Below are positions 26,760 to 42,418 of a stretch of 55,216 nucleotides of DNA, one piece after another. Location of the stretch: positions 1 to 55,216 of the IMG/VR virus record IMGVR_UViG_3300047274_000273; one strand, given 5' to 3'. The first letter of the stretch is position 1, and every line of letters begins with the position of its first letter. The DNA comes from a virus. Under the pieces are notes generated by a model. It saw only the letters and a list, made by a program, of their open reading frames with translations. It was not told the origin of the DNA and searched no databases. The translations under genes and the position numbers were made by a program.

Positions 26760-26942
26760 TTATTGCTCCCTGCGCATCATCAGGGTAGCCGCCCACATCA
26801 GGAGCAGACCTAGGCCCGATACTGCCAGGCTCTGAAGCAGCTCTGTGTTCGTGATTGAGTTCTCTACACCGCCCACGCCCAACATGGTCAGTAGTATGCC
26901 CATGATCACGAAGAAGAATACTCGTGTGTCTGATCTAGCCAT
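26760..26942 (-). CDS. 60-residue two-helix membrane protein
   Basis: Hydrophobic helices at about 8-26 and 36-54. The segment GILLTMLGVGGVEN is close to GLLLTFGAVGGMED in the protein at 28407-28601, so these are paralogues of one small phage membrane family. First gene of its operon, with a consensus promoter and GGAG Shine-Dalgarno. Confidence 0.7.
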   Translation of the reverse strand: MARSDTRVFFFVIMGILLTMLGVGGVENSITNTELLQSLAVSGLGLLLMWAATLMMRREQ

Positions 26943-26974
26943 TTCGCTCTCCTTGTTTGTTTGTGTATGTGTCT

Positions 26975-27008: not shown

Positions 27009-27356
27009 TTAATCCAGACGTGAGCCAGCGTAGGCTTCGAAGCCGTACTTCTTGAACACTTGGGCCGCAGCTTCAGCACCCTTCTCAAGTGTATCCACGT
27101 TCTGGCAACCAAACTTTGAAGGATTCCACATCTGGAGCCCGCCTGAGTAGCTTGGACGGATATCGCAGGCTTTCAAGGCCTTGCCCAGTTTGGTATTGCC
27201 TTTGATGCCATAGATGTTCACCCAGGCAAAGCCGCAGGCGAAACGATCTTGACCGCCTAGTACCTTCTGGAAGTACTCAGAGGCCGCAGCGTAAGCAGCA
27301 GCTTCAGCTTCACGGACGATTTGGGGGATCTGCTCGGGGGTTGCTGTTACGGACAT
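27009..27356 (-). CDS. hypothetical phage protein
   Basis: A 115-residue Ala-rich protein (AEAAAYAAASEYFQK) with CGFAWVNIYGIKGNTKLG in the middle. I recognise the general type from phage genomes but no function. It has its own promoter and GGAGCG leader, and ends 6 bases before the next promoter. Confidence 0.7.
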   Translation of the reverse strand: MSVTATPEQIPQIVREAEAAAYAAASEYFQKVLGGQDRFACGFAWVNIYGIKGNTKLGKALKACDIRPSYSGGLQMWNPSKFGCQNVDTLEKGAEAAAQVFKKYGFEAYAGSRLD

Positions 27357-27387
27357 AGTTCGCTCCTAAGTTGTTTACAGTGTTTAC

Positions 27388-27678: not shown

Positions 27679-27907
27679 CCTTTTGGCTGTTGCAGAATTG
27701 CCACATCTTGAGCTCGGCTCCCCGCAGTCCCAGCAAGACTCCCTCGAAGTCTCGATAGGAACAGCAGCCTGCCACGTTCGGATACACGGTGTAGCCATAG
27801 AACTGATTGTCCCTCCGCGCCCGAGTAACAGCAGCCTTGGCGGGTCCTGGCTTCTTATAATACTTGACCAGGTTCCCATTCTCGTCGTAGGTTACCCAGC
27901 CACCCAT
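27662..27907 (-). CDS. hypothetical protein
   Basis: An 81-residue protein beginning MGGWVTYDENGNLVKYYKKPG, with CCSYRDFEG near the middle. The ATG shares one base with the upstream stop (TGATG). Its last seven codons overlap the next promoter. Function unknown. Confidence 0.65.
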   Translation of the reverse strand: MGGWVTYDENGNLVKYYKKPGPAKAAVTRARRDNQFYGYTVYPNVAGCCSYRDFEGVLLGLRGAELKMWQFCNSQKVDKLG

Positions 27908-28143
27908 CAAGCCACCTCTTTGTAGACCCGGTAGCCGTAGATTGCGAGTTTGCGGATCGCGGCCTGGATATCCTGATGATCCAACTCTAGGTCTTCCAGG
28001 CACTTCTTGGCTTCCTTGATGGTGTCTGCGGTGCAGGTCAGACCTGAGTAGATATGGCGGCAGTCGTAGTAGCGATCACCATCGTCTGTGACCAGTTGGT
28101 AAGTACCAAAGGTCTTGTACATGATCATTTCGCCTGTTTTCAT
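27907..28143 (-). CDS. hypothetical protein
   Basis: A 78-residue protein with DDGDRYYDCRHIYSGLTC and a helical acidic middle (ADTIKEAKKCLEDLEL). Leader AAAAGGAGCGAACT before ATG. No known domain. Confidence 0.68.
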   Translation of the reverse strand: MKTGEMIMYKTFGTYQLVTDDGDRYYDCRHIYSGLTCTADTIKEAKKCLEDLELDHQDIQAAIRKLAIYGYRVYKEVA

Positions 28144-28173
28144 AGTTCGCTCCTTTTGTGTTACTGTGTGTGT

Positions 28174-30187: not shown

Positions 30188-30193
30188 CCTTGT

Positions 30194-30226
30194 AAAAAAA
30201 CCCTAGTGTACGTGTGTACACTAGGG
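30194..30226 (-). terminator. Rho-independent terminator
   Basis: An 11-bp perfect stem (CCCTAGTGTAC / GTACACTAGGG) with a 4-base loop, followed on the minus strand by seven T. It ends the transcript of the gene at 30260. Confidence 0.92.
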
Positions 30227-30243
30227 CACCAAGTTGCCGTTTT

Positions 30244-30261
30244 CCGGGAGCGAATCGGATT
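30244..30261 (-). promoter_or_regulatory. anti-Shine-Dalgarno motif in 3'UTR, copy 1
   Basis: The minus transcript reads AATCCGATTCGCTCCCGG right after the stop codon. GATTCGCTCC is complementary to GGAGCGAATC, covering the Shine-Dalgarno of many early genes. An identical 18-mer is at 37048. Confidence 0.55.
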
Positions 30262-30565
30262 AAGCGGCAACCGCTGCTGTCTTCGCGACAGTAGCCTTGA
30301 TCACTGCCTTAGGAGCAGGATTCTTCTTCTCTGCGTAGGCGATCGCAGCTTCCACAGCTGGATTACCTGCGCCGAAGCCAATGGTCTTGAGGTGTTGTAC
30401 AGCCTCAGCCTTGGTCATCTCTGTGGGCAGCTCCACGAGCTCCACATCCTTGTGGCCGTTCTTGGCCAGGATCTTGATACGCATGGTATCATTGGCAAAA
30501 CGCAGCTTGGTCTTGCCTTCAAGGGTTGAAACACCTGCAACCGCGAACTTTTTATCTGTAGCCAT
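30260..30565 (-). CDS. small basic phage protein
   Basis: A 101-residue protein (MATDKKFAVAGVSTLEGKTKLRFAND...) with an Ala/Lys-rich C-terminal tail. I recall relatives in marine T4-like phages without a function. Its Shine-Dalgarno is GGAGAT, not the common GGAGCG, its leader is unusually long (about 55 bases), and its 3'UTR carries an anti-GGAGCG motif before a strong terminator. This suggests a dedicated regulatory role for its mRNA. Confidence 0.75.
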   Translation of the reverse strand: MATDKKFAVAGVSTLEGKTKLRFANDTMRIKILAKNGHKDVELVELPTEMTKAEAVQHLKTIGFGAGNPAVEAAIAYAEKKNPAPKAVIKATVAKTAAVAA

Positions 30566-30622
30566 TTTACTAATCTCCAAAGTGTGTGTATGAAATAGCC
30601 AATCCATTTATTGGCATAGTTT

Positions 30623-30651
30623 ACTATAGCACAACTATCCAAGTAAGTCAA
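30623..30651 (-). promoter_or_regulatory. sigma70-type promoter, weaker variant
   Basis: GGTTGACT, 17 bp, TATAGT. Both hexamers deviate from consensus. The TGA of the -35 is the upstream gene's stop. Confidence 0.8.
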
Positions 30652-30839
30652 CCATTTGGTTGCCCAAATTGCGGGGTTACTTGGATAGTCACGCTCTCCT
30701 TCTCGTCTAGGGCGGCGATAAACTCGTCGTCCATGACCAGATCCTGCATGGCCAAATCGATCATCGATTCGACCCTATCTAGATCGGCTGCACCGTCACC
30801 GGCACAGCTCACCGTGAATGTATAGGTCAGAGTCCTCAT
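30648..30839 (-). CDS. small acidic hypothetical protein
   Basis: A 63-residue acidic protein with a beta-strand start (MRTLTYTFTVSCAGDG) and Asp/Glu-rich helix. ATGA overlap with the YubB-like gene. Its stop codon lies in the -35 of the next promoter. Confidence 0.62.
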   Translation of the reverse strand: MRTLTYTFTVSCAGDGAADLDRVESMIDLAMQDLVMDDEFIAALDEKESVTIQVTPQFGQPNG

Positions 30840-31462
30840 GATGTCTTCAACTCCAATTTGTCACTACCTTCTTTGACGAAGCGATAGAGTTCTTCATCCA
30901 TACGCTGTTCCTCTTCGTATTCTGCTTGATTCTCAGAGATAGCGAAGAACTCGTCCAACTCCTCGGGCAACATGTCTTTGGCACCCTGGCTATCACCCCA
31001 ATCGGAGTAGCAGTCATCTGCGCCGTTGTCGTAGACGCCAGCGAAGCACATACCACCTTCATAGTAGTAGGCACGCACCGTGAAACCCTGTTCAACCAGA
31101 GCATCGTAGGCTCCGATGGGAGGGGCCCAGGCACTGTCGAAACTTGCGGTCAACATCAGACCGTCATCACGCACATCCAAGGTGCCATCATCACCACCTA
31201 CATCCCACTTAGTGCCCCAACGGCTAGTCTGGAAATCATACCAGTCCTTGGCACCGTAGAGTTCTAGGTTACGCTTCATCTGAGCCTCATGCTCAGCTCG
31301 CCGGTCTTCACCTACGAATCCTGACACTGTGTCAGTGAGGTCTTTGGGTGTGGGAATCGCGTAGTTGCAGAACTCACCGCGTTTGTAGGCTTCGGCTAGA
31401 TCTGTGATCTTCTGCGGGTCTTCGTGTCCCACTTCTACAAAATTACTGCACCAATTAGGCAT
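30836..31462 (-). CDS. YubB-like (DUF1281) ferredoxin-fold protein
   Basis: A 208-residue acidic protein starting MPNWCSNFVEV, the hallmark N terminus of the YubB/DUF1281 ferredoxin-like family found on plasmids and phages, with DWYDFQTSRWGTKWD in the middle and a Tyr/Trp-rich C-terminal half. Function of the family is unknown. Own perfect promoter and AAAGGAGCG leader. Confidence 0.78.
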   Translation of the reverse strand: MPNWCSNFVEVGHEDPQKITDLAEAYKRGEFCNYAIPTPKDLTDTVSGFVGEDRRAEHEAQMKRNLELYGAKDWYDFQTSRWGTKWDVGGDDGTLDVRDDGLMLTASFDSAWAPPIGAYDALVEQGFTVRAYYYEGGMCFAGVYDNGADDCYSDWGDSQGAKDMLPEELDEFFAISENQAEYEEEQRMDEELYRFVKEGSDKLELKTS

Positions 31463-31487
31463 AAGTCGCTCCTTTCACTATAAACAT

Positions 31488-31516
31488 ATTATAGCATCAT
31501 TGACTCAAAATGTCAA
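31488..31516 (-). promoter_or_regulatory. sigma70-type early promoter
   Basis: GGTTGACA, 17 bp, TATAAT, perfect consensus; overlaps the last codons of the upstream gene. Confidence 0.92.
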
Positions 31517-31721
31517 CCAATTTCTTGTTCTGCAGATCCTGATAGTTGCGTGTGATCTGGGCATCTACAGCACCGATGAGATTCAGCTCGATGTCTGTGG
31601 CATTTTTGCCACAGATCTGTTCTAGAGTCCTTAAGACCTTACGCTGTGCCATAGGAGTCATTTCAGGATCTTCCAGTGCGGTCACGGCACGGCGAATGTA
31701 TTCGAATTCACTGGGGGTCAT
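31497..31721 (-). CDS. hypothetical protein
   Basis: A 74-residue helical protein (MTPSEFEYIRRAVTALEDPEM...). Starts 14 bases inside the upstream gene, and its last eight codons (KLVDILSQ) encode the next promoter's -35 and spacer. No motif. Confidence 0.62.
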   Translation of the reverse strand: MTPSEFEYIRRAVTALEDPEMTPMAQRKVLRTLEQICGKNATDIELNLIGAVDAQITRNYQDLQNKKLVDILSQ

Positions 31722-31923
31722 ATTCTTTCACCATCCTATAAAGTGGGTCCAATTCTTCGGTATCTTCTAGCTCGAAATCGTCTGTGGCCCAATCGATCCA
31801 TTCTTCGGAGAACACATCGACACTGCCGTCTCTGAGCATCTCACGTGCGGCCTCTTCGGTTTCAGCCTCTACGATGTAGGTTTCTGAGACAATGGCATTG
31901 CGCCAAAAAGTAAATCGTTTCAT
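31708..31923 (-). CDS. acidic hypothetical phage protein
   Basis: A 71-residue protein, MKRFTFWRNAIVSETYIVEAET then Glu/Asp-rich with Trp. A beta-strand pair plus helix is likely. I recall similar proteins in T4-like phages; no function known. One-base overlap (TGATG) with the upstream gene. Confidence 0.65.
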   Translation of the reverse strand: MKRFTFWRNAIVSETYIVEAETEEAAREMLRDGSVDVFSEEWIDWATDDFELEDTEELDPLYRMVKEYDPQ

Positions 31924-32165
31924 CAGAAATCCGCAGTCATCGCGTGAGTCGCATGATCGTACTTGACAAAGACTTTGCCCGTTTCTACTCCCGTACCTGC
32001 ATCATCATGGTAAGTGACCTTGTAGCAGAAGTCCCCACCATTGGTGATGCCTAGGAACTCTGCTGTGTCAAATGAGCACATAGAGTAGCCGCTTTTGTCT
32101 AAGATCACAGCCAGGCCTTTAGGGCCGAATGAAGTAAGGGTTTTCAGTGTGTCTGCTAGAATCAT
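31923..32165 (-). CDS. hypothetical protein
   Basis: An 80-residue protein beginning MILADTLKTLTSFGPKGLAV. The start at 32165 follows AAAGGAGCGAATA; a longer frame upstream would cross the promoter. Alternating strand pattern near the C terminus. Unknown function. Confidence 0.65.
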   Translation of the reverse strand: MILADTLKTLTSFGPKGLAVILDKSGYSMCSFDTAEFLGITNGGDFCYKVTYHDDAGTGVETGKVFVKYDHATHAMTADF

Positions 32166-32189
32166 TATTCGCTCCTTTACTATACCTAT

Positions 32190-32218
32190 AGTATAGCATC
32201 GTCCATCCAATCTGTCAA
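32190..32218 (-). promoter_or_regulatory. sigma70-type early promoter
   Basis: GGTTGACA, 17 bp, TATACT. The -35 TGA is the stop codon of the SWIM protein gene. Confidence 0.92.
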
Positions 32219-32556
32219 CCGATTTCTGCCACGTGCTTGCAGTTACCACGGAAAGTGAATCCTGGGCAGGTACAGGTCCGTTCCTCTACATTAACGAAGT
32301 AGGAGTTGCCTTTGCTGCCCTTGACTTCTAGAACCATTGGCTCTTTCTTCTGGACGAGGGCTTTGAAAGGGTTAGGCTCGAGCTTTTCGAACTTACGTCC
32401 ACGCCGATCGATCTTGATCGTGCCTTTGAGGACTCGGATCTCTCCTGTGCCCCAAGGCCTGTAGGCAACCACTCGATCCCCGTCGAGCAGGTAGTCGTGG
32501 TTGGGTTGCCGATATTCAACGCCCGTCCAAACAGTGGTTTCACGTAGGGCCTCCAT
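32215..32556 (-). CDS. SWIM-type zinc-finger protein
   Basis: A 113-residue protein whose C terminus ends CTCPGFTFRGNCKHV: Cys95, Cys97, Cys106 and His108 form the CxCxnCxH SWIM zinc site, known for DNA or protein binding. The first 60 residues resemble a small SH3-like barrel. The SWIM is placed at the extreme C terminus. It overlaps the upstream stop (TAATG). Likely DNA-binding or an adaptor. Confidence 0.78.
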   Translation of the reverse strand: MEALRETTVWTGVEYRQPNHDYLLDGDRVVAYRPWGTGEIRVLKGTIKIDRRGRKFEKLEPNPFKALVQKKEPMVLEVKGSKGNSYFVNVEERTCTCPGFTFRGNCKHVAEIG

Positions 32557-32822
32557 TAACGGTAGTCCTTCTTGTCACCATAGCGTTCGTTGTAGTCATA
32601 GCCTTCGTTGTATTCAGCTCGGCTTAATTCGTCTGTGACTTCAACGCGGGGACCACTGTCTCCACCAACACCACCATAGTGAGCACCACGTGGACGACCA
32701 TAGTAGGAATCGGCACTGCCACGATCATAGAGGCTACCGTGATTTGTGCGGATGAACTGCCAACCACGCAGTGCTCGTACCACCTGCTTCTGCTCGTCTT
32801 CGGTCATGATATGTAGGTACAT
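32556..32822 (-). CDS. hypothetical Gly/Tyr-rich protein
   Basis: An 88-residue protein; the second half is rich in Gly, Tyr, Arg and Asp (RGAHYGGVGGDSGPR...), suggesting disorder. The first half (TEDEQKQVVRALRGW) is helical. Starts after ACAAGGAGCGAAAG. Function unknown. Confidence 0.65.
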   Translation of the reverse strand: MYLHIMTEDEQKQVVRALRGWQFIRTNHGSLYDRGSADSYYGRPRGAHYGGVGGDSGPRVEVTDELSRAEYNEGYDYNERYGDKKDYR

Positions 32823-32852
32823 CTTTCGCTCCTTGTTATTCACTATACCCAT

Positions 32853-32881
32853 AGTATAGCACCGAGTAGCCAAAAGGTCAA
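32853..32881 (-). promoter_or_regulatory. sigma70-type early promoter
   Basis: GGTTGACC, 17 bp, TATACT. Confidence 0.85.
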
Positions 32882-32899
32882 CCAAAATATCGAAAGACC

Positions 32900-33256
32900 C
32901 TAGACGATCACGGGTTTCCTGGCAGGTGCCCGATCATCCCAGATCCGGTAGCTGTGGTTGGCACGTACCCAGTCTGCGAATGTCTGCGGCTCAGTCTTGA
33001 ACCATGCCATAATGTCGTCGGGTCCTATGTCATCCTGGCTGGTGAACACATAGATCTCGTAGTGCCTATGTGTGTTATACTGTGCCCTGAGCTTGAGCGC
33101 AGTGAGGTTGAAGCTCACGGGCTTCTCAACTCGCTTGCTCTGTTTGATGCTGTCAAACAGATGGTTCTTAGCCCAGTTGTCGGGGTGATGTTCCGTGATT
33201 TCTTCAAAGAACTCCACACCCTCACAGTCCCAAGAGACTAGGTAGTAGCGTGTCAT
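32900..33256 (-). CDS. hypothetical protein
   Basis: A 118-residue protein starting MTRYYLVSWDCEGVEFFEEIT. The ATG overlaps the stop of the small HTH-like gene (ATGA), which makes it preferable to upstream in-frame starts. It has HYEIYVFTSQDDIGPDDI and ends basic. No known domain. Confidence 0.65.
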   Translation of the reverse strand: MTRYYLVSWDCEGVEFFEEITEHHPDNWAKNHLFDSIKQSKRVEKPVSFNLTALKLRAQYNTHRHYEIYVFTSQDDIGPDDIMAWFKTEPQTFADWVRANHSYRIWDDRAPARKPVIV

Positions 33257-33426
33257 GAATTGACTGTGTTGTGCGGGTCGAACTCGTCGGCTTCGTCCAA
33301 GGACTCTGACTGCATCCAATCATAGACTAGTTGCAGAGGACAGTCTAGGATCTTAGCGATCATCTTAGGACCGTGTCCTTCGATATACAGTTGCTCGATG
33401 TCGTAGGCAAGATCACTCACGCTCAT
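33253..33426 (-). CDS. 57-residue HTH-like phage protein
   Basis: MSVSDLAYDIEQLYIEGHGPKMIAKILDCPLQLVYDWM reads as a compact helix-turn-helix (helices at about 3-14, 19-27, 31-39), the layout of small phage transcription-associated proteins. The acidic tail follows. Overlaps both neighbours by ATGA. Could regulate early genes; no direct evidence. Confidence 0.62.
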   Translation of the reverse strand: MSVSDLAYDIEQLYIEGHGPKMIAKILDCPLQLVYDWMQSESLDEADEFDPHNTVNS

Positions 33427-33548
33427 TGCGCGGTCTCCTTCATGATAACCTGGGTTTTACTCACAGCCTTGTCAATGGCAGATGCTACACCCGACACACC
33501 TACCGTGGCCACAAACATACCTGCGATGAATGCTAGTAGAATTTTCAT
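33423..33548 (-). CDS. 41-residue membrane or exported protein
   Basis: MKILLAFIAGMFVATVGVSG then a charged tail. One hydrophobic helix, possibly a signal sequence cut at ASA. Shine-Dalgarno TAAGGAGCGATC lies right behind the preceding stop. Real by its ribosome site and overlap. Confidence 0.62.
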   Translation of the reverse strand: MKILLAFIAGMFVATVGVSGVASAIDKAVSKTQVIMKETAQ

Positions 33549-33557
33549 GATCGCTCC

Positions 33558-33650
33558 TTAGCCTACAAAGATCCAATAAGAACCTACGGCAATCGCATAG
33601 ACCGCGACCGCGTAGCCCAATAGCTTGATGTCTTCGATTAACCACTCCAT
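33558..33650 (-). CDS. 30-residue membrane protein
   Basis: MEWLIEDIKLLGYAVAVYAIAV... one hydrophobic helix. It is the first gene after a consensus promoter and has AAAGGAGCG before ATG, so it is likely translated despite being among the smallest here. Confidence 0.65.
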   Translation of the reverse strand: MEWLIEDIKLLGYAVAVYAIAVGSYWIFVG

Positions 33651-33682
33651 TTTGACGCTCCTTTCTTAACTGTCTAGCCTAT

Positions 33683-33711
33683 AGTATAACACCAATCTGT
33701 CTAGATGTCAA
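33683..33711 (-). promoter_or_regulatory. sigma70-type early promoter
   Basis: TTGACA, 17 bp, TATACT; lacks the GG before TTGACA seen in most others. Confidence 0.9.
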
Positions 33712-33739
33712 GTTCGGATTTACGCACACACGTAGCAGC

Positions 33740-33768
33740 GGGGTCTGTGGCTAAAAAGCCACAACCCC
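33740..33768 (-). terminator. stem-loop after the VWA gene
   Basis: GGGGTTGTGGCT and AGCCACAGACCCC form a long stem around a T-rich loop, 10 bases after the stop at 33778. No T-run follows, so intrinsic termination is uncertain. Confidence 0.5.
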
Positions 33769-33777
33769 TGGCACTCT

Positions 33778-34989
33778 TCAGGCCGCTTCCTTTTCGTAGA
33801 TCACAGTCTGTCCAAAGGGCGCCTCTGCCTGCGTATTACCCTTGACAACGAAGATCGTGTCGCAGTAGTCCTCTTCACCCCAACCACCGCAGGGATAGCC
33901 GTCTGTGAACATGATGAACTTCTTGGGCTGGATATCGTTGTCACGCATGAACTCCCAATTGACTTCAAAGGAAGTACCGCCGCCACCCTGAGGTTCGTAG
34001 TTGACAAGGTCTTCTGAGTTGTCATGAGTCACAGTCTGGTGATTGTAGATCTCAGTGTCAAAGCACCAGATATTGACCTTGAAGTCTTCGAACTGATCCA
34101 TGATGCCCTTGACCTCTGACAAGAACACTGAAGCATCTTCCTCACCGATCGAACCTGACATATCAATGCCAATGGCTACGTCGATGGTAGTTGCTTCCTT
34201 CATGCCCGGAAGGATCGCACCACTGTGAGCACTCTTACGGTTGAAGCGTTGGAACGAGAAGTCGTTGCGAACGATGCTTTGGATCTCTTGACGCACAAGT
34301 TCACGCCAGGAAATCTTAGGCTCAGTCATAGACTTGATCATACGCATGATGCCTGCAGGAGTCTTACCTGCACCAGCGGCCGCGGCACTCTGGATCATGG
34401 CTTCTTTGATCTCATCCTTGATGCGTTGTGCATCTTCCTTAGAGATCTTAGGACGACCCTTGCCATCCTTGTCGCCATCGCCATCACCTTCGCCGTTCTC
34501 ACCATCACCTTCTTTGATGTGCTCGTCGAGCAGGTCACCCAATTGCTTGAGCAGTTCGGGCATACTGATCTTCTCTGCTTTGTCGTAGAGATCATCGTAG
34601 ATCTCTTCCCAAGCCATGCCACGGTACTTTGGATCGTAGCAGATCTTGACCTGGGTGATCTTGTCACCGATACGCTCATCTACAAGGATTTGGTTTACGG
34701 CATAGTCTTGTGCGATGTTGCTGAGCTGACGATCACGGCTACCTACGCGACCAAAGTGGTCAAACACGCAGTGGCAGATCTCGTGACCAAACAAGAATTC
34801 AAGTTGTTTGATCGAGAGCTTTTCTACGAACTTGGTATTGTAATAAAAGTCACGACCGTTAGTGGCCGCGGTTGGGCACCAGTCGTCTGCATTGATCAAA
34901 CGCATACGAGTGGCCATGTTGCCGAAGAAAGGTGCTTTGAGTAGCAGTCCTACTCGGGCAGTGGTTAGTTTATCGATGATCGGGTCCAT
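33778..34989 (-). CDS. VWA-domain putative metallopeptidase (DUF2201-type)
   Basis: A 403-residue protein. Residues 1-130 resemble a putative metallopeptidase domain with HEICH at 69-73 (HExxH zinc site). An acidic Gly/Asp/Lys linker spans about 158-185. The C-terminal part is a von Willebrand A domain with MIDAS DMSGS at 276-280 and FTDGYPCGG later. Such proteins pair with MoxR AAA+ ATPases as chaperone-like complexes, and a MoxR gene lies directly upstream. Own perfect promoter. Confidence 0.88.
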   Translation of the reverse strand: MDPIIDKLTTARVGLLLKAPFFGNMATRMRLINADDWCPTAATNGRDFYYNTKFVEKLSIKQLEFLFGHEICHCVFDHFGRVGSRDRQLSNIAQDYAVNQILVDERIGDKITQVKICYDPKYRGMAWEEIYDDLYDKAEKISMPELLKQLGDLLDEHIKEGDGENGEGDGDGDKDGKGRPKISKEDAQRIKDEIKEAMIQSAAAAGAGKTPAGIMRMIKSMTEPKISWRELVRQEIQSIVRNDFSFQRFNRKSAHSGAILPGMKEATTIDVAIGIDMSGSIGEEDASVFLSEVKGIMDQFEDFKVNIWCFDTEIYNHQTVTHDNSEDLVNYEPQGGGGTSFEVNWEFMRDNDIQPKKFIMFTDGYPCGGWGEEDYCDTIFVVKGNTQAEAPFGQTVIYEKEAA

Positions 34990-35013
34990 TCGCTCTCCTT
35001 ACTGTATGTATCT

Positions 35014-35042
35014 ATTATAGCACCTTCTGGCACCCTTGTCAA
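35014..35042 (-). promoter_or_regulatory. sigma70-type early promoter
   Basis: GGTTGACA, 17 bp, TATAAT, perfect consensus, directly after the MoxR terminator. Confidence 0.92.
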
Positions 35043-35044
35043 CC

Positions 35045-35083
35045 AAAAAAGGCGGGCTAGAGCCCTGGGTGAGCCCTAGCCCT
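35045..35083 (-). terminator. Rho-independent terminator after moxR-like gene
   Basis: GGGCTAG / CTAGCCC arms (35076-35082 and 35054-35060) with inner pairing, followed on the minus strand by six T. It separates MoxR from the VWA gene, which then has its own promoter. Confidence 0.82.
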
Positions 35084-35098
35084 ACGATGGACGAGGTC

Positions 35099-36184
35099 TT
35101 AATTCTCCATCGCACTCAAAACATACTTGCCGAAACGCTTGTGGAACTCGTCGAAGCTCGTCATCTTAGTAGCGTCAAAGGGCAGGTTGTAGTTGGTAAG
35201 ACCGGTCTTGGCACCCATGACCACCAGCTCAGTCGGGAAGTTATCCATCATGTAGCGGAAGAAACGGTCTGCCTTCTCGTCAAACTTCTTGTCCTTCTTC
35301 TCAGCGGCATCCTTGAGCTCGTAGCAGAGGCTCACAGTCAAAGAATACATGGCTGACACTTCTTTGATAGCCAAGTCCTTGACCTTGCCGTCGAGGATGT
35401 CTTCTGCCTTGGGCAGTTTACCTGCGATCTTACGGTGAGCCATGAACTTGACAGCAAGACCGTCACCGATAGCACCTGCGACCAAAGTAGTCAGGGTCTC
35501 GTTGTCAACATCGTCGTCGTTGAGCAGGTCGCTGACGAAAACCCAAGAACGAGGAGTTGCGAAACTCTTGCTAGGGCTCTTAGGATCGAAGTCATAGAGG
35601 TCCTGCTTGGCGAAACCCACATAACCAACAACCTCAGGGTGAACATTGTTCATCACAGCCCACTCTTGGAAGTCATCGAAGTCTACCTTCATTTCCAAGT
35701 GCAGGAAGCGGTTAGCCAACGGAGCAGGCATACGGTAGGTAACACCACGGTCACCTTCGCGGTTACCAGCGGCAACGATGTCAACACCCTTAGGCAGAGT
35801 GTAGGTGCCAACGCGGCGGTTCAGGATCAACTGATAGGCCGCGGCCTGTACCGCAGGAGGAGCAGAGTTCAGCTCGTCCAAGAAGATCAGTGCGGTGGAC
35901 TCTGGGTCCGTAGGAAGCTCTGCAGGGGGAGCCCAGACCATCTTGCCTTGTTCTGCGTTGTAATAAGGAATACCCTTGATGTCGGTGGGCTCCCAAAGTG
36001 CTAGGCGAACGTCGATGACTTCGCGACCAGCATCTTCACCGATCTGCTTGACGAGATCGGATTTGCCAATACCCGGAGGACCCCACAGGAATACAGGACG
36101 GCGAACTGAAATCGCCTTACGGATCGCCTTCTTGGCCGACTTAGGACCAACTTGACGGACGGAAATATCTTGTGCTTTTGCCAT
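35099..36184 (-). CDS. MoxR-family AAA+ ATPase
   Basis: A 361-residue AAA+ protein: Walker A GPPGIGKS at 35-42, Walker B LIFLDE at 99-104, and a sensor AAGNREGDRGV near 140. The MoxR type remodels or matures protein complexes with VWA partners; the neighbour at 33778 is such a partner. Starts after a long leader with ACGAGG, differing from the GGAGCG class. Confidence 0.9.
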   Translation of the reverse strand: MAKAQDISVRQVGPKSAKKAIRKAISVRRPVFLWGPPGIGKSDLVKQIGEDAGREVIDVRLALWEPTDIKGIPYYNAEQGKMVWAPPAELPTDPESTALIFLDELNSAPPAVQAAAYQLILNRRVGTYTLPKGVDIVAAGNREGDRGVTYRMPAPLANRFLHLEMKVDFDDFQEWAVMNNVHPEVVGYVGFAKQDLYDFDPKSPSKSFATPRSWVFVSDLLNDDDVDNETLTTLVAGAIGDGLAVKFMAHRKIAGKLPKAEDILDGKVKDLAIKEVSAMYSLTVSLCYELKDAAEKKDKKFDEKADRFFRYMMDNFPTELVVMGAKTGLTNYNLPFDATKMTSFDEFHKRFGKYVLSAMEN

Positions 36185-36236
36185 CTAAGACCTCGTTAAA
36201 AAAAGTTGAACTACTAATTGCTTTCCCAGTGTTAGT

Positions 36237-36265
36237 ATTGTAGCACCAAACCACTCAGTTGTCAA
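36237..36265 (-). promoter_or_regulatory. sigma70-type early promoter
   Basis: GGTTGACA, 17 bp, TACAAT. TGA of the -35 is the stop of the upstream gene. Confidence 0.9.
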
Positions 36266-36906
36266 CCACTGATTTTCACATAGTTGAGCTGTGTTGTTTT
36301 ATCGCCACGGATGTTCTTGATCTTGCCCTTGATGCGCAGGGTAGCGTCCTTGGCTAGATCTTTGTTGAACCAGAAGTCCACGAAGCTTTCACCCATGCGG
36401 GCTTGGATCTTGAACTTGTTGAAATTAACATTGTAACGGCTGTTGATGACCACGATGTCACCTTGTACAGCATCCCCTTCAGCTCCTTGGAGCTGTTCCG
36501 AGGTATAGATTTCCCTCTTGAGCTCGGTACGCTGCTGATCACGTTGAGCCACAGAGGGCAAACAGCTGACCACAGCAAAGTCGTAGAGATCGCGTCCCGT
36601 GAATTGATCTTTGGCAGCGATCCGCATGGCAGTCTTTTGGAAGTCATTGAGCTGCCCTGTGAGCGCCAGCAGGGTATAGCTTTTGAAGTGATCCCGCGCC
36701 GAGCGACCTGCAGCATAGTCGGCCTCGGTGACTTCTACGAAGTTGCCGGTACGAAGCCAATCCTTGACCATGTTCTTGTTGGCTTCACGACCACGGCAGG
36801 GAGGAACAGCATTGGGTAACCATTCGGTTTCTTTGAGGTAGGCTCCGTTGATACGCTGCGCGGCAGCAGCACAGGCCCAGACTTGATCAGCAGTAAATTC
36901 CATCAT
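36262..36906 (-). CDS. hypothetical protein, possible OB-fold
   Basis: A 214-residue protein: helical first half (MMEFTADQVWACAAAAQRING...) and a strand-rich C-terminal part (IVVINSRYNVNFNKFKIQARM ... LRIKGKIKNIRG) consistent with an OB-fold nucleic-acid binding domain. No enzymatic motif. Could be a single-strand-binding accessory; unproven. Starts at tandem ATGs after TAGGAGCG. Confidence 0.65.
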   Translation of the reverse strand: MMEFTADQVWACAAAAQRINGAYLKETEWLPNAVPPCRGREANKNMVKDWLRTGNFVEVTEADYAAGRSARDHFKSYTLLALTGQLNDFQKTAMRIAAKDQFTGRDLYDFAVVSCLPSVAQRDQQRTELKREIYTSEQLQGAEGDAVQGDIVVINSRYNVNFNKFKIQARMGESFVDFWFNKDLAKDATLRIKGKIKNIRGDKTTQLNYVKISG

Positions 36907-36932
36907 CGCTCCTAATCTCTTAGTATGCGTCT

Positions 36933-36961
36933 ATTATAACACTATGTATCCAAAGTGTCAA
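36933..36961 (-). promoter_or_regulatory. sigma70-type early promoter
   Basis: GGTTGACA, 17 bp, TATAAT, perfect consensus. Confidence 0.92.
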
Positions 36962-37010
36962 CCACTTTTGGGAGTGCCGGCGGCTGTGGCTTTTTCGCAA
37001 CAAAGAGGTC

Positions 37011-37037
37011 AAAAAAACAGGGTCCTAAGACCCTGTT
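37011..37037 (-). terminator. Rho-independent terminator
   Basis: A 9-bp perfect stem AACAGGGTC / GACCCTGTT with a 4-base loop, then seven T on the minus strand. Ends the HTH gene's transcript. Confidence 0.92.
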
Positions 37038-37047
37038 CAAAACCGCC

Positions 37048-37083
37048 CCGGGAGCGAATCGGATTGGTTTTGAGGAGCGAACC
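37048..37083 (-). promoter_or_regulatory. double anti-Shine-Dalgarno motif in 3'UTR
   Basis: The transcript after the HTH gene stop contains GGTTCGCTCCTC (37072-37083) and the 18-mer AATCCGATTCGCTCCCGG (37048-37065). They are complementary to AGGAGCGAAC and GGAGCGAAT, the two common Shine-Dalgarno variants of early genes. Confidence 0.6.
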
Positions 37084-37359
37084 TTAGGCTACGGTCCAAC
37101 CAGCAGCCTTGGCCATGTAACCAAGTGCTACGATTTCGCGGCTAGGTTGACCCATTTCGTACTCGGTAACCTGCACACCATTGCCAGCCTTGCGACTGTT
37201 GCTGTAGACAGCATAGCCACCCTTGCGGATGCGGCTAGCTTCTGCGGCTAGATTCTTTACACCAAAACGCTTCTCAGCTTGTGAGGCTGTAAGAGTTTCA
37301 CCATTGTAAAGAGCTTGGAAGACCTTGAAAGTCTTGGTTTCGGGATTGAATCGCTTCAT
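37084..37359 (-). CDS. winged-HTH protein (HTH_39-like)
   Basis: A 91-residue protein: FKVFQALYNGETLTASQAEKRFGVKNLAAEASRIRKGGYAVYS matches the HTH_39 pattern, where a helix pair, a recognition helix and a wing strand bind DNA. Likely a small regulator. Its Shine-Dalgarno is GAGGAA rather than GGAGCG, its promoter is a variant, its leader is about 50 bases, and its 3'UTR has two anti-GGAGCG motifs. Confidence 0.78.
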   Translation of the reverse strand: MKRFNPETKTFKVFQALYNGETLTASQAEKRFGVKNLAAEASRIRKGGYAVYSNSRKAGNGVQVTEYEMGQPSREIVALGYMAKAAGWTVA

Positions 37360-37661: not shown

Positions 37662-37881
37662 CTGCCTCCTGTGCAGCGGCCAAAGCAGCGATCTCGGCGT
37701 CGATGGCCTTTTCTTTCTTCTTACCAGCCAGGGCAGTGCCTCGCTGATAGACTCGCCAGTAGTGTTCACCGCAGTAGGCCTTGCCCTCTAGGGTCTTGGC
37801 ACCACAGTAATGAACAGGCCCCTTGCGGGGATCCTGTTCAGGACCAATCCACTGGCACTCACGGATTGGAATATCAATCAT
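37651..37881 (-). CDS. GcrA-like zinc-motif protein
   Basis: A 76-residue protein with CQWIG at 9-13, HYCGAKTLEGKAYCGEHYW at 24-42 and VYQRG at 44-48. This is the Cys-x-Trp ... Cys-Gly ... Tyr-Cys-xx-His pattern of the GcrA family C terminus. GcrA is an alphaproteobacterial sigma70-binding cell-cycle regulator. The phage version lacks the N-terminal HTH, so it could compete for RNA polymerase. Family match is from the motif only. Confidence 0.65.
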   Translation of the reverse strand: MIDIPIRECQWIGPEQDPRKGPVHYCGAKTLEGKAYCGEHYWRVYQRGTALAGKKKEKAIDAEIAALAAAQEADDE

Positions 37882-39008
37882 TAATGCATCCCCTTCATAA
37901 CAGTGACCTTGGCCATGTTCTGCCAGTTAGTAGGAAAGCTCTTGCGAAGATCCGCGACCTTGAGCACAGTACGCAGGCTCAGCTCACGCATTTGAGCACG
38001 ATGCTCTTTGATGAAGTTAACCACTTCGTCCTTAGCGATCTGCTCAAGCTCGTAGCTATCCAACATACCGTCCTTGACGATCTGCTCAATGCGCAAGACC
38101 TTCTCGCGATCAGTGTCCATGCGCAGGTCAATGTAGTGGCAACGGCTTTCAAGAGCGGCAAGGTGTTCTTGCAGTTTCTTGCTTCGCACATTCTCGAACT
38201 TCAAGTTCGTGATAAAGATAGCACCACCCTTGAACTCGAAACGATCTGGCACACCTTCCGAACGAAGCAGACGGCTGTCAGTGTTCCACGAGATAGTACG
38301 CTTCTTGGATGAATCCAAAGCGGCCTTCAAGATGTTCAAAGACACATCGTCCAACAGGATGCTGTCACAGTCATCAAACACAAGAATGCTCTTAGCGTCT
38401 GAGTACTTGTAGAGCTTGGTGTAGAGTCCAATGGCACTCATAGCACCCTTGACGATCTCGTACTTGGGCTTGCGTTCGCCCAGGGTGTTGAACAGATCTT
38501 CTTTGCTTAGTACTTCTTCAACACCAAAGCTCTTGCCCACGCCTGGAGGGCCAGTGACGATCATAGCACGAACATCACCGCCTTTGACAGCCTTGGTCAT
38601 CTCAGTGAGGATCTCAAAGCGCATGCGAGTACGCTCGATGATCTGCTCATCGGTCTCGTGTGCTACAGCCTCATCAGAAACCTTAACTTGGGTGAAGTCC
38701 GTGACTTCGACACCCTTGACGGGCTTGCTCTTAAGAGCTGTCAGCATTGCTACTCCTTGTGGAATGGGTTTGGCACTACCTGCAACATTGTAGGCACCCT
38801 GCTCGCAACGGATGCGGATGCTACGATCAGGGAAGCCAGGCTGGCTAGCACCTTCGACAGTGACATAGCCTGTACCGTCTTTGGCTACCTTGTAGTCTTC
38901 TACTAGTTTAAAAGTAAGCCCTGCAACATTGGTGGGTTGACCCTTGATGTTGTAGTAACCCTCAGTGAAAGTAATATACACAGTTCGCTCCTGTTGTTTA
39001 TTGAACAT
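37881..39008 (-). CDS. AAA ATPase
   Basis: Up to 375 residues. The first 115 are strand-rich; then Walker A GPPGVGKS at 153-160, Walker B ILVFDDCDS near 208, and a sensor-like ITNLKFE near 267. Single AAA domain of unknown partner. Two starts compete: ATG 39008 lies 6 bases after the -10 (leaderless), whereas GTG 38981 has GGAGCGAACT just upstream like other early genes. The protein would then be 366 residues. Confidence 0.85.
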   Translation of the reverse strand: MFNKQQERTVYITFTEGYYNIKGQPTNVAGLTFKLVEDYKVAKDGTGYVTVEGASQPGFPDRSIRIRCEQGAYNVAGSAKPIPQGVAMLTALKSKPVKGVEVTDFTQVKVSDEAVAHETDEQIIERTRMRFEILTEMTKAVKGGDVRAMIVTGPPGVGKSFGVEEVLSKEDLFNTLGERKPKYEIVKGAMSAIGLYTKLYKYSDAKSILVFDDCDSILLDDVSLNILKAALDSSKKRTISWNTDSRLLRSEGVPDRFEFKGGAIFITNLKFENVRSKKLQEHLAALESRCHYIDLRMDTDREKVLRIEQIVKDGMLDSYELEQIAKDEVVNFIKEHRAQMRELSLRTVLKVADLRKSFPTNWQNMAKVTVMKGMH

Positions 39009-39054: not shown

Positions 39055-39081
39055 AATAACCCTACGATCTCTAGGGTTATT
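39055..39081 (-). terminator. stem-loop at gene end
   Basis: AATAACCCTA / TAGGGTTATT, 10-bp perfect stem, includes the stop codon of the gene at 39077. No T-run follows, so it may act as a weak terminator or mRNA stabiliser. Confidence 0.5.
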
Positions 39082-39520
39082 CGTCCTCTGCTACCTTGGC
39101 TTCTTCCAGGGCCTGTGCCAGAGGGCCGTCATAGCGTCCGTAGAACTCTACATACCACTGATCGTCCAACCGATAGCAGTAGTTGTATTCCTCGAACTGT
39201 GCTTCGGAACGATACTCTGCGTAGTTCTTGAACACGCGAGCTTCAACACCTGCTTCGCCACGATCTCGTCCGTAGGCCACGCACCAATCCTCTCGCTTAT
39301 CACCCTCGGTATAGCGAGCATCAAAATCGTGTGTCTCGCCGATCTCTTTGCGTAGGCTGCTGACATCTCCCAAGAGCATGAGTGCCAAGATCTTAGCACG
39401 ATCCTTGTAGTGTGTCTGCAGGATCTCACCGTTGTTATCCAGGTAACCGTCCCAGTGGCAGTAGATCTGCATGATCTCACCGTTGGGCTGTTCCATTGCA
39501 ATAGTGCTACGAGTTGCCAT
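39077..39520 (-). CDS. conserved-looking phage protein
   Basis: A 147-residue acidic protein: MATRSTIAMEQPNGEIMQIYCHWDGYLDNNGEIL. This N terminus (MATRSxI ... YCHWDGY ... NG) is common in phage proteins of unknown function. The C-terminal half is Tyr/Glu-rich. Leader ACAGGAGCGAAC. Confidence 0.75.
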   Translation of the reverse strand: MATRSTIAMEQPNGEIMQIYCHWDGYLDNNGEILQTHYKDRAKILALMLLGDVSSLRKEIGETHDFDARYTEGDKREDWCVAYGRDRGEAGVEARVFKNYAEYRSEAQFEEYNYCYRLDDQWYVEFYGRYDGPLAQALEEAKVAEDE

Positions 39521-39550
39521 GTTCGCTCCTGTTTGTTTAACTTAGCCTAG

Positions 39551-39587: not shown

Positions 39588-39941
39588 TTAAATACCCTGG
39601 AACGCTGTCAGGGCTTTCTGTGCATCCGCGTCCAGCATACAGGCGTCCATGGCTTTCTGCTTTTCTGCTTCCACGGTCTTGCGATATGCCGCCAGCTCTG
39701 CGACCTTGGCTTCCATAGCAGGCCACACTACATCGGATGGGTTGAGGTAAGGACCAGTATAGTCCACCTTGTCCTCTTTAAGGGTGATCTCGCCTGAGCG
39801 GATGCCCTCAAACACCATGCCCCAAGTAGGCTGTTCCGGACGTCCTGCAGGGCCATAGAGTTCCACTGCCTTGGCCTGCACCTTTTCACGTGCGATCTCG
39901 TTGAGACGACGCACAAAATACTCACGCTGGGTTTGTTCCAT
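39588..39941 (-). CDS. hypothetical protein
   Basis: A 117-residue helical protein (REYFVRRLNEIAREKVQAKAVELYG) with coiled-coil-like second half. No known domain. Own promoter, TAGGAGCGAAAA leader; ends just before the palindromic promoter. Confidence 0.67.
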   Translation of the reverse strand: MEQTQREYFVRRLNEIAREKVQAKAVELYGPAGRPEQPTWGMVFEGIRSGEITLKEDKVDYTGPYLNPSDVVWPAMEAKVAELAAYRKTVEAEKQKAMDACMLDADAQKALTAFQGI

Positions 39942-39973
39942 TTTTCGCTCCTAAGTTGTTTAAAGGAAGTGCT

Positions 39974-40532: not shown

Positions 40533-40875
40533 CCACTTTGGCTAAAGACCCTATGAGCCTGCGGGCTTCTTCACGTGCTTCCCGCATAGCTTCGTGGATC
40601 AGGTCCTCAGCAGTGCCGTCCTTGAGTACTTCACGGGCATCTTCGTAGCAGCATCCGCCCAAGTAGTGTGAGCCCAACTCATGCCCGTCAAGCATGACTC
40701 GTACACGCAGCATGAACCAATCAAGATCGTACGAATCGATCTTACGGCAAAGCTCGTCGAGGTCTGTGACAGTGTCATCAAAGCAGTCACGAGGGCTGAT
40801 GTCTTCCCAGGTCTTGTCTACGATGATGTCAAAGCCATCGCGCTGCATAGCAGCTAGAGTGTCCCAGTGTCTCAT
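40513..40875 (-). CDS. hypothetical acidic protein
   Basis: A 120-residue protein: strands (DGFDIIVDKTWEDISPRDCF, WFMLRVRVMLDGHELGSHYLGGCCY) then an acidic helix (EDLIHEAMREAREEARRLI). ATGA overlap with the upstream gene. Unknown. Confidence 0.65.
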   Translation of the reverse strand: MRHWDTLAAMQRDGFDIIVDKTWEDISPRDCFDDTVTDLDELCRKIDSYDLDWFMLRVRVMLDGHELGSHYLGGCCYEDAREVLKDGTAEDLIHEAMREAREEARRLIGSLAKVVDTVPA

Positions 40876-41192
40876 CGTGGAATCCTCACTACCATGCCCT
40901 GGGCTGTGGATACCACTTCATAGCCTTTAGACTCTAGGATGCTGACTGCCTCTCGGGCCAGCGCACGATCACGCTTTATGGCACCCGCTATCTTTACCGC
41001 TATGAACTTCTTGCGATAATTGATATAGCTCTCTGCGTAGGCATAAGCAGTGTCCAGCAGGTCCAGGGCTCGCTGCGCTAGGCATTGCTGGGAGAGTGTG
41101 TAGGTCGCTGCCATCTCGCGATTGCGATAGTAGGCATTTACGGCTGCGCCACGGCCATTGTCCTCGGCGTCTCTGTATCTCAGTTGCTTCAT
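40872..41192 (-). CDS. hypothetical basic helical protein
   Basis: A 106-residue Ala/Arg/Tyr-rich helical protein ending in two strands (GYEVVSTAQGMVVRIPR). AGGAGCGAACT leader, fully complementary to the anti-SD motif at 37072. Confidence 0.65.
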   Translation of the reverse strand: MKQLRYRDAEDNGRGAAVNAYYRNREMAATYTLSQQCLAQRALDLLDTAYAYAESYINYRKKFIAVKIAGAIKRDRALAREAVSILESKGYEVVSTAQGMVVRIPR

Positions 41193-41222
41193 AGTTCGCT
41201 CCTATTTGTTCACTGTTTTAAT

Positions 41223-42080: not shown

Positions 42081-42165
42081 TGGTAGGACCGACCGGAATC
42101 GAACCGGTATGCATTGCTGCGAGGGATTTTAAGTCCCTTGTGTCTACCTATTTCACCACGGTCCC
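42081..42165 (-). tRNA. tRNA-Leu (anticodon TAA)
   Basis: Acceptor GGGACCG pairs with CGGTCCT, encoded CCA, anticodon loop CTTAAAA giving TAA, a long variable arm (class II), and T loop TTCGAAT. Length 85. It reads TTA, suited to AT-rich phage genes. Confidence 0.95.
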
Positions 42166-42211
42166 GTAACGTTGTGCTGCTGTGTGCTGCTGCACACTGC
42201 TGCTGTTGTAG

Positions 42212-42288
42212 TGGCCTGCCCGGAGGGATTCGAACCCCCGACCGCATGCTTAGAAGGCATGTGCTCTATCCAACTGAGCTACGGGCAG
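42212..42288 (-). tRNA. tRNA-Arg (anticodon TCT)
   Basis: 77 bases. Acceptor CTGCCCG pairs with CGGGCAG, discriminator G, encoded CCA, anticodon loop CTTCTAA giving TCT, T loop TTCGAAT. Reads AGA, abundant in the AT-rich genes here. Confidence 0.95.
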
Positions 42289-42340
42289 AAATATACTGTA
42301 AATTTACTTTGGTATTCCCTTAAAATTCACTCTGTTATTG

Positions 42341-42418
<78 letters not shown>

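Follow-up and report, generated by a model that had tools for sequence, protein, structure and literature searches.

Two early genes of an uncultured phage are followed, between stop codon and terminator, by the same short sequence, which is complementary to the Shine-Dalgarno leaders of other early genes in the same DNA. Does the phage turn down its own early genes by RNA-RNA pairing? An earlier note on this DNA had suggested that processed 3'UTR RNAs shut off early translation in trans. We addressed the question in a window of 55,216 nt (the whole stretch of DNA that was analysed; IMG/VR record IMGVR_UViG_3300047274_000273) and in related viral contigs.

The 18-mer AATCCGATTCGCTCCCGG, described as following the stops of 30260-30565 and 37084-37359, is found at both places (30244-30261 and 37048-37065, minus strand, both exact). 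At up to three mismatches it has 2 matches in the whole window, against 0.01 expected from shuffles. The further complementary motif reported after the second stop was confirmed as GGTTCGCTCCTC at 37072-37083 (minus strand), and each 3'UTR indeed ends in a strong hairpin and a run of seven T. Overlooked in the earlier note was that each 18-mer is itself a hairpin inside an outer stem, in which CCG/CGG closes the loop AUUCGCUCC or UUCGCUC. The outer stem of the first hairpin extends into the final codons of 30260-30565. The elements are arranged as follows.

30260-30565, minus strand: source gene 1, 101 aa, no Pfam or PHROG family; leader GGAGATTAGTAAA without target motif
30232-30272, minus strand: hairpin 1 in the 3'UTR, outer stem GGUUGCCG/CGGCAACU, inner stem CCG/CGG
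30247-30255, minus strand: loop of hairpin 1, AUUCGCUCC, complement of GGAGCGAAU
30193-30227, minus strand: intrinsic terminator with seven T, directly 3' of hairpin 1
37084-37359, minus strand: source gene 2, 91 aa, winged-helix HTH_39, phrog_4973; leader GAGGAAAAAAA without target motif
37072-37083, minus strand: extra, mostly unpaired copy GGUUCGCUCCUC after the stop of source gene 2
37037-37073, minus strand: hairpin 2 in the 3'UTR, outer stem CAAAACC/GGUUUUG, inner stem CCG/CGG
37051-37059, minus strand: loop of hairpin 2, AUUCGCUCC
37010-37036, minus strand: intrinsic terminator with seven T, directly 3' of hairpin 2

The window hairpins thus sit between stop codon and intrinsic terminator, as in 3'UTR-derived sRNAs, and no separate promoter for a dedicated RNA was seen upstream of either. 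Copies resembling GGUUCGCUCCUC also stand after the stop codon in L123, in L159 and in a sister clade. The source genes differ from the rest of the block in the ways that had been proposed: their Shine-Dalgarno sequences are GGAGATTAGTAAA (30260-30565) and GAGGAAAAAAA (37084-37359), their promoters keep 10/12 and 9/12 consensus positions against 10-12/12 in the rest of the block, and their leaders measure about 50-65 nt against about 20-25 nt for the others. The product of 37084-37359, announced as a HTH protein, scores as winged-helix HTH_39. Another motif, CCGGCACTCC, lies at 36972-36980 (minus strand) as a single window copy, within chance expectation; in many relatives it follows the HTH gene, lying past the terminator and ahead of the early promoter that comes next (GGTTGACA).

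On the side of the leaders, GGAGCGAA occurs 13 times in the window against 1.3 expected, and 8 of the 13 copies lie on the minus strand, preceding start codons of the early block. The complementary sites reported before the genes starting at 27356, 28143, 32165 and 41192 are present. The target and target-like leaders are listed below.

26943-26949, minus strand: target GAGCGAA, leader of the gene starting at 26942
27359-27366, minus strand: target GGAGCGAA, leader of 27009-27356
28146-28153, minus strand: target GGAGCGAA, leader of 27907-28143
31465-31472, minus strand: target-like GGAGCGAC, leader of 30836-31462
32168-32175, minus strand: target GGAGCGAA, leader of the gene starting at 32165
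32825-32832, minus strand: target GGAGCGAA, leader of the gene starting at 32822
33550-33557, minus strand: target-like GGAGCGAT, leader of the gene starting at 33548
34989-34995, minus strand: target GAGCGAA, leader of 33778-34989 (DUF2201 VWA/metallopeptidase-like)
36905-36912, minus strand: target-like GGAGCGAT, leader of 36262-36903
38984-38991, minus strand: target GGAGCGAA, leader of a NrdC.10-like ATPase
39522-39529, minus strand: target GGAGCGAA, leader of 39077-39520
39944-39951, minus strand: target GGAGCGAA, leader of 39588-39941
41195-41202, minus strand: target GGAGCGAA, leader of 40872-41192

The predicted hairpin-leader pairing in the window amounts to about -14 to -18 kcal/mol for the target leaders. 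The leaders of the two source genes reach -8 to -9 kcal/mol, equal to shuffled leaders (mean -8.8). The 1% tail of the shuffled leaders extends down to -16.9 kcal/mol, so that pairing energy alone would not be proof. The position of the motif is that of the Shine-Dalgarno sequence: 98 leader copies are in sense and 11 in antisense orientation, and the spacing to the AUG has a sharp mode at 2 nt, identical in the two classes of loop and leader (A and B) described below. This fixed orientation and spacing argue against a double-stranded DNA operator, in which a phage protein, perhaps HTH_39 itself, would bind GGAGCGAA/TTCGCTCC and the complementarity would simply reflect the two strands of one site. 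That one carrier gene encodes a winged-helix protein speaks for such an operator. However, the 3' copies lie in the loops of hairpins with compensatory stem changes, and an operator needs no stems; several class B records, which are fragments, also lack a recognisable HTH gene. We regard the operator as very unlikely.

A few features of the same DNA deserve mention in their own right. The gene 33778-34989 (minus strand) carries the PHROG label of an HNH endonuclease, yet Pfam assigns it a DUF2201 metallopeptidase and a VWA-like domain; it adjoins a MoxR-type ATPase (35099-36184), making an ATPase-VWA pair. A cluster of three tRNAs lies beside the early block at 42084-42418 (minus strand). Outside the window, the same viral record holds CsgG-like, curlin-repeat and FecR-domain genes in a row (L254:13355-16356; G000, about 108154-111155), the curlin-repeat gene having a GGAGCGAA leader, and a full-length Hsp70 gene (G000, about 102022-103911). 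Either the phage carries unusual cargo here or the contig is a host/phage chimera.

The bearers of the hairpin form a large family of uncultured, T4-like phages. The element follows orthologues of both source genes in dozens of viral contigs; among the IMG/VR relatives it is present after the stop in most of the HTH set and in nearly all of the 101-aa set. For covariation we used 33 distinct sites, which had to lie in the 3'UTR of a gene with an orthologous protein and to contain UCGCU as an anchor; pairing was not a criterion. Each of the five stem pairs examined has changed on both of its sides (0/500 shuffles), for example CTGG/CCAG, TCAG/CTGA and TCG/CGA, and the stem covariation is 0.189 against 0.134 in shuffled sites (3/500). 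The loop U-UCGCU-C is near-invariant, U and C flanking the UCGCU on which the sites were selected in nearly all of them. With one to two copies per 3'UTR in class A and two to four in class B, variable stems are combined with unpaired anti-Shine-Dalgarno loops, several per 3'UTR, as in the "cuckoo" type of RNA discussed below. No Rfam family matched at the hairpin sites; the Rfam search gave tRNAs only at the gathering score, and its other matches were weak and of the chance kind. The c4 antisense RNA is an Rfam family, and its model likewise gave no match at the gathering score.

The earlier note had asked for conservation in related phages, and most relatives keep the genes and the complementarity together. 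GGAGCGA is among the commonest Shine-Dalgarno leaders of early genes only where the hairpin is present. If the sampled DNA of a relative lacks the hairpin, matching leaders are rare in it too, although one or two are present in several such relatives. HTH relatives such as L151-L153 were discarded as examples of "no hairpin, no motif", their full records holding hairpins elsewhere. The escape of the source genes extends family-wide: GAGCG is found in 0/26 distinct leaders of the HTH gene and 0/29 of the 101-aa gene.

An exact 15-mer scan of viral contigs, a source of leads that surely includes chance matches and carries no statistics, gave the first ATPase-linked examples among the matches listed. 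These led to an AAA ATPase of about 290 aa as a third carrier gene. It is the orthologue of NrdC.10 of the T4 group and of a window gene:

37881-39008, minus strand: NrdC.10-like AAA ATPase, phrog_1250; leader GGAGCGAACTGTG, likely start GTG at about 38981

In many relatives the ATPase 3'UTR contains one or two hairpins, of which the last often doubles as the terminator. The window ATPase has no 3'UTR hairpin, though its leader has the target. The ATPase leader nearly always carries the target, and it matches its own 3'UTR loop in every class A and class B locus listed. The escape of sources proposed by the earlier note thus stands for the HTH and 101-aa genes and fails as a rule, since the ATPase leader holds the target; judged from these leaders, two carriers are predicted to escape and the ATPase to be self-targeted. 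PA5oct, the closest cultured phage by its ATPase, has neither a hairpin at the ATPase gene nor an enriched leader motif. Orthologues of this ATPase are labelled "thioredoxin" in several phage records (e.g. MK797984 EST35_0359), probably by name transfer from nrdC.

The match between ATPase leader and ATPase hairpin in both classes would also be expected if the hairpin acted in cis only, pairing with the leader of its own mRNA and controlling translation or decay of the carrier, the other leaders being similar merely by shared type. Such a restriction is improbable in our view: the HTH and 101-aa carriers keep their hairpins with own leaders free of the target, and the motif is present in many leaders of non-carrier genes. 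As the ATPase leader does hold the target, feedback on the carrier mRNA belongs in the account as well.

Further evidence for pairing comes from a matched change of loop and leader between lineages. In class A, whose code the window shares, the loop UUCGCUC is complementary to leaders GAGCGAA. In a sister lineage (class B) the loop at the same ATPase 3'UTR is UGCCCUC and the early leaders read GAGGGCA; the loop is mostly unpaired in the predicted folds of both classes alike. A first ATPase sample consisted of loci found by protein alone, except that G017, one of the seven class B loci, was added from outside the scan list. Its GAGCGAA:GAGGGCA leader counts are 80:0 for the 19 loci with UUCGCUC, 1:36 for the 7 with UGCCCUC and 2:2 for the 21 without either hairpin (Fisher 2e-29 for the association of class and leader, ignoring the relatedness of loci). 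In a second sample of 27 loci found by protein, the same counts are 17:0 (3 class A loci), 0:45 (10 class B loci) and 0:2 (14 loci without hairpin); at least one of its class B loci (L468) lies on a contig already in the first sample, and two of its class A loci have identical ATPases. L459, from a GTDB scan and not found by motif, has UGCCCUC hairpins, with GAGGGCA as its top leader heptamer (12 against 1.1 expected).

G017, a 357-kb relative with no hairpin in its HTH 3'UTR, was dropped as a negative control since it bears the second code: its early leaders read GAGGGCA, and the hairpin loops in its ATPase 3'UTR, UGCCCUC, are the exact complement. Only 1/133 of its GGAG leaders are GGAGCGA, against 14/89 in the window's phage. 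Many early leaders in G017:12265-23328 (L276, L277) contain AGGGCA twice, near the presumed transcript start (TAATAAGAACATAGGGCAAAC) and as the Shine-Dalgarno sequence, and the same phage has several UGCCCUC loops in the ATPase 3'UTR; double-site pairing is possible there.

Complementarity to the translation starts of several mRNAs is thus kept through compensatory change, as expected of a trans-acting sRNA. The hairpins adjoin or lie within terminators, and one might suppose that they are terminator parts whose match to the leaders is accidental. With loop and leader changing together, the loop near-invariant while the stems vary, and the low expectation for the 18-mer, such an accident is scarcely credible.

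Class B probably occurs in one clade, within which three entries have neither the hairpin nor the leaders. The change from A to B was probably one evolutionary event. As there is about one clear A/B switch, with correlated losses, the large counts and Fisher values are not independent evidence. Exceptions also exist. The sister clade of the window's phage, with GGAGCA leaders, fits only in part: of its members, only the loop of G030 (UUGCUCC, after the HTH gene) matches its leaders, and four other members combine a CGCUCC element with GGAGCA leaders, a match of 5-6 nt. L460 combines UGCCCUC hairpins with leaders that are mostly GAGGAGCA, and L370 has UCGCUCC loops with GGAGCA leaders. For the leaders GGAGCAA/GAGCAAG of the L149 group a matching hairpin was not found. 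The HTH 3'UTRs of sister-clade members L436-L440 show another conserved hairpin, AAGTCC(C/T)GGGGGTAGTGTCCC(G/A)GG, after an unpaired xxCGCTCC element 3' of the stop.

From these comparisons it is very likely that pairing between the hairpin RNA and early Shine-Dalgarno sequences is under selection, and likely that it represses the translation of early genes. In the mechanism that we propose, a few early genes would carry multi-copy anti-Shine-Dalgarno hairpins in their 3'UTRs, namely the HTH_39 and 101-aa genes in the window and the NrdC.10-like ATPase in relatives. The apical loop (UUCGCUC or UGCCCUC) would pair in the cell over 7-9 bp with the extended Shine-Dalgarno sequence (GAGCGAA or GAGGGCA), blocking 30S loading and so lowering the translation of the target early genes. 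The RNA may reach its targets in trans while still part of the mRNA 3' end, or after being processed to a fragment that the terminator protects, with a timing that would correspond to early shut-off. The ATPase mRNA, also a target, would be under negative feedback, and the HTH and 101-aa carriers, having no target, would continue to be translated. As a whole, with 3'UTR hairpins repressing the coded early leaders in trans and with ATPase feedback, we consider this mechanism probable.

The pairing is symmetrical in sequence, and one may turn its direction round: abundant early leaders could act as a sponge for the 3'UTR RNA, for instance controlling the HTH and ATPase transcripts through their stability or termination. 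The lack of self-targets in the HTH and 101-aa mRNAs would agree with this. We nevertheless find a sponge quite unlikely, because the site covers the Shine-Dalgarno sequence of each target at ribosome-loading distance, which makes competition with the ribosome the simplest effect.

In the literature, of which most subscription papers and preprints were outside our coverage, no description of the phage element was found. By published description, the closest likeness is with the α-r14 "cuckoo" sRNAs of Rhizobiales (e.g. NfeR1), which have three hairpins with hypervariable stems and unpaired anti-Shine-Dalgarno loops, and whose redundant motifs address many targets at translation start regions (PMC7143759). 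Both have multiple variable-stem hairpins with anti-Shine-Dalgarno loops and many start-region targets. However, the α-r14 RNAs are bacterial sRNA genes acting on cell mRNAs, whereas the phage element is viral, lies in 3'UTRs and faces the phage's own early leaders. Its loop and leaders changed together between lineages, and no match to a curated RNA family (Rfam) was found.

At the start sites of about 30 mRNAs, the RegA protein of T4-related phages is in competition with ribosomes (PMC3014915); one regulator for many starts is the kind of role that we propose here. RegA is a protein acting on A+U-rich start regions, whereas the phage hairpin is an RNA facing the Shine-Dalgarno sequence. A search for regA (PF01818) in 11 records gave no match, with the built-in controls also silent and the records possibly fragments. 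In P1/P7, the loops of the c4 antisense RNA are thought to pair around a ribosome binding site on an mRNA of the same phage (PMC12197685). That RNA controls an antirepressor in temperate phages, whereas in the present phages a single leader code is common to many early genes. CisR, a host 3'UTR-derived sRNA acting on a gene of phage CTXphi (PMC13250501), resembles the present case as a regulatory RNA from an mRNA 3' end; it is host-encoded, whereas here both partners are phage-encoded and the release of an sRNA is putative.

The candidate codes are GAGCGAA-UUCGCUC, GAGGGCA-UGCCCUC and perhaps GGAGCA-UUGCUCC. If each lineage has a private code, an established phage could silence a co-infecting relative of the same code. 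That the hairpins do so while sparing relatives of other codes, and that this interference drives code switches, is a speculation to which we give little credence. The code is directly testable, with several target genes per genome and classes A and B as ready swap controls, and the covariation of loop and leader amounts to compensatory-mutation evidence provided by nature. The design would be compact, one anti-Shine-Dalgarno loop controlling many genes. A known global early repressor of T4-like phages is a protein, RegA; the present comparisons make a strong case for an RNA counterpart in related large phages, whose early genes are probably turned down by pairing with RNA of the same phage.
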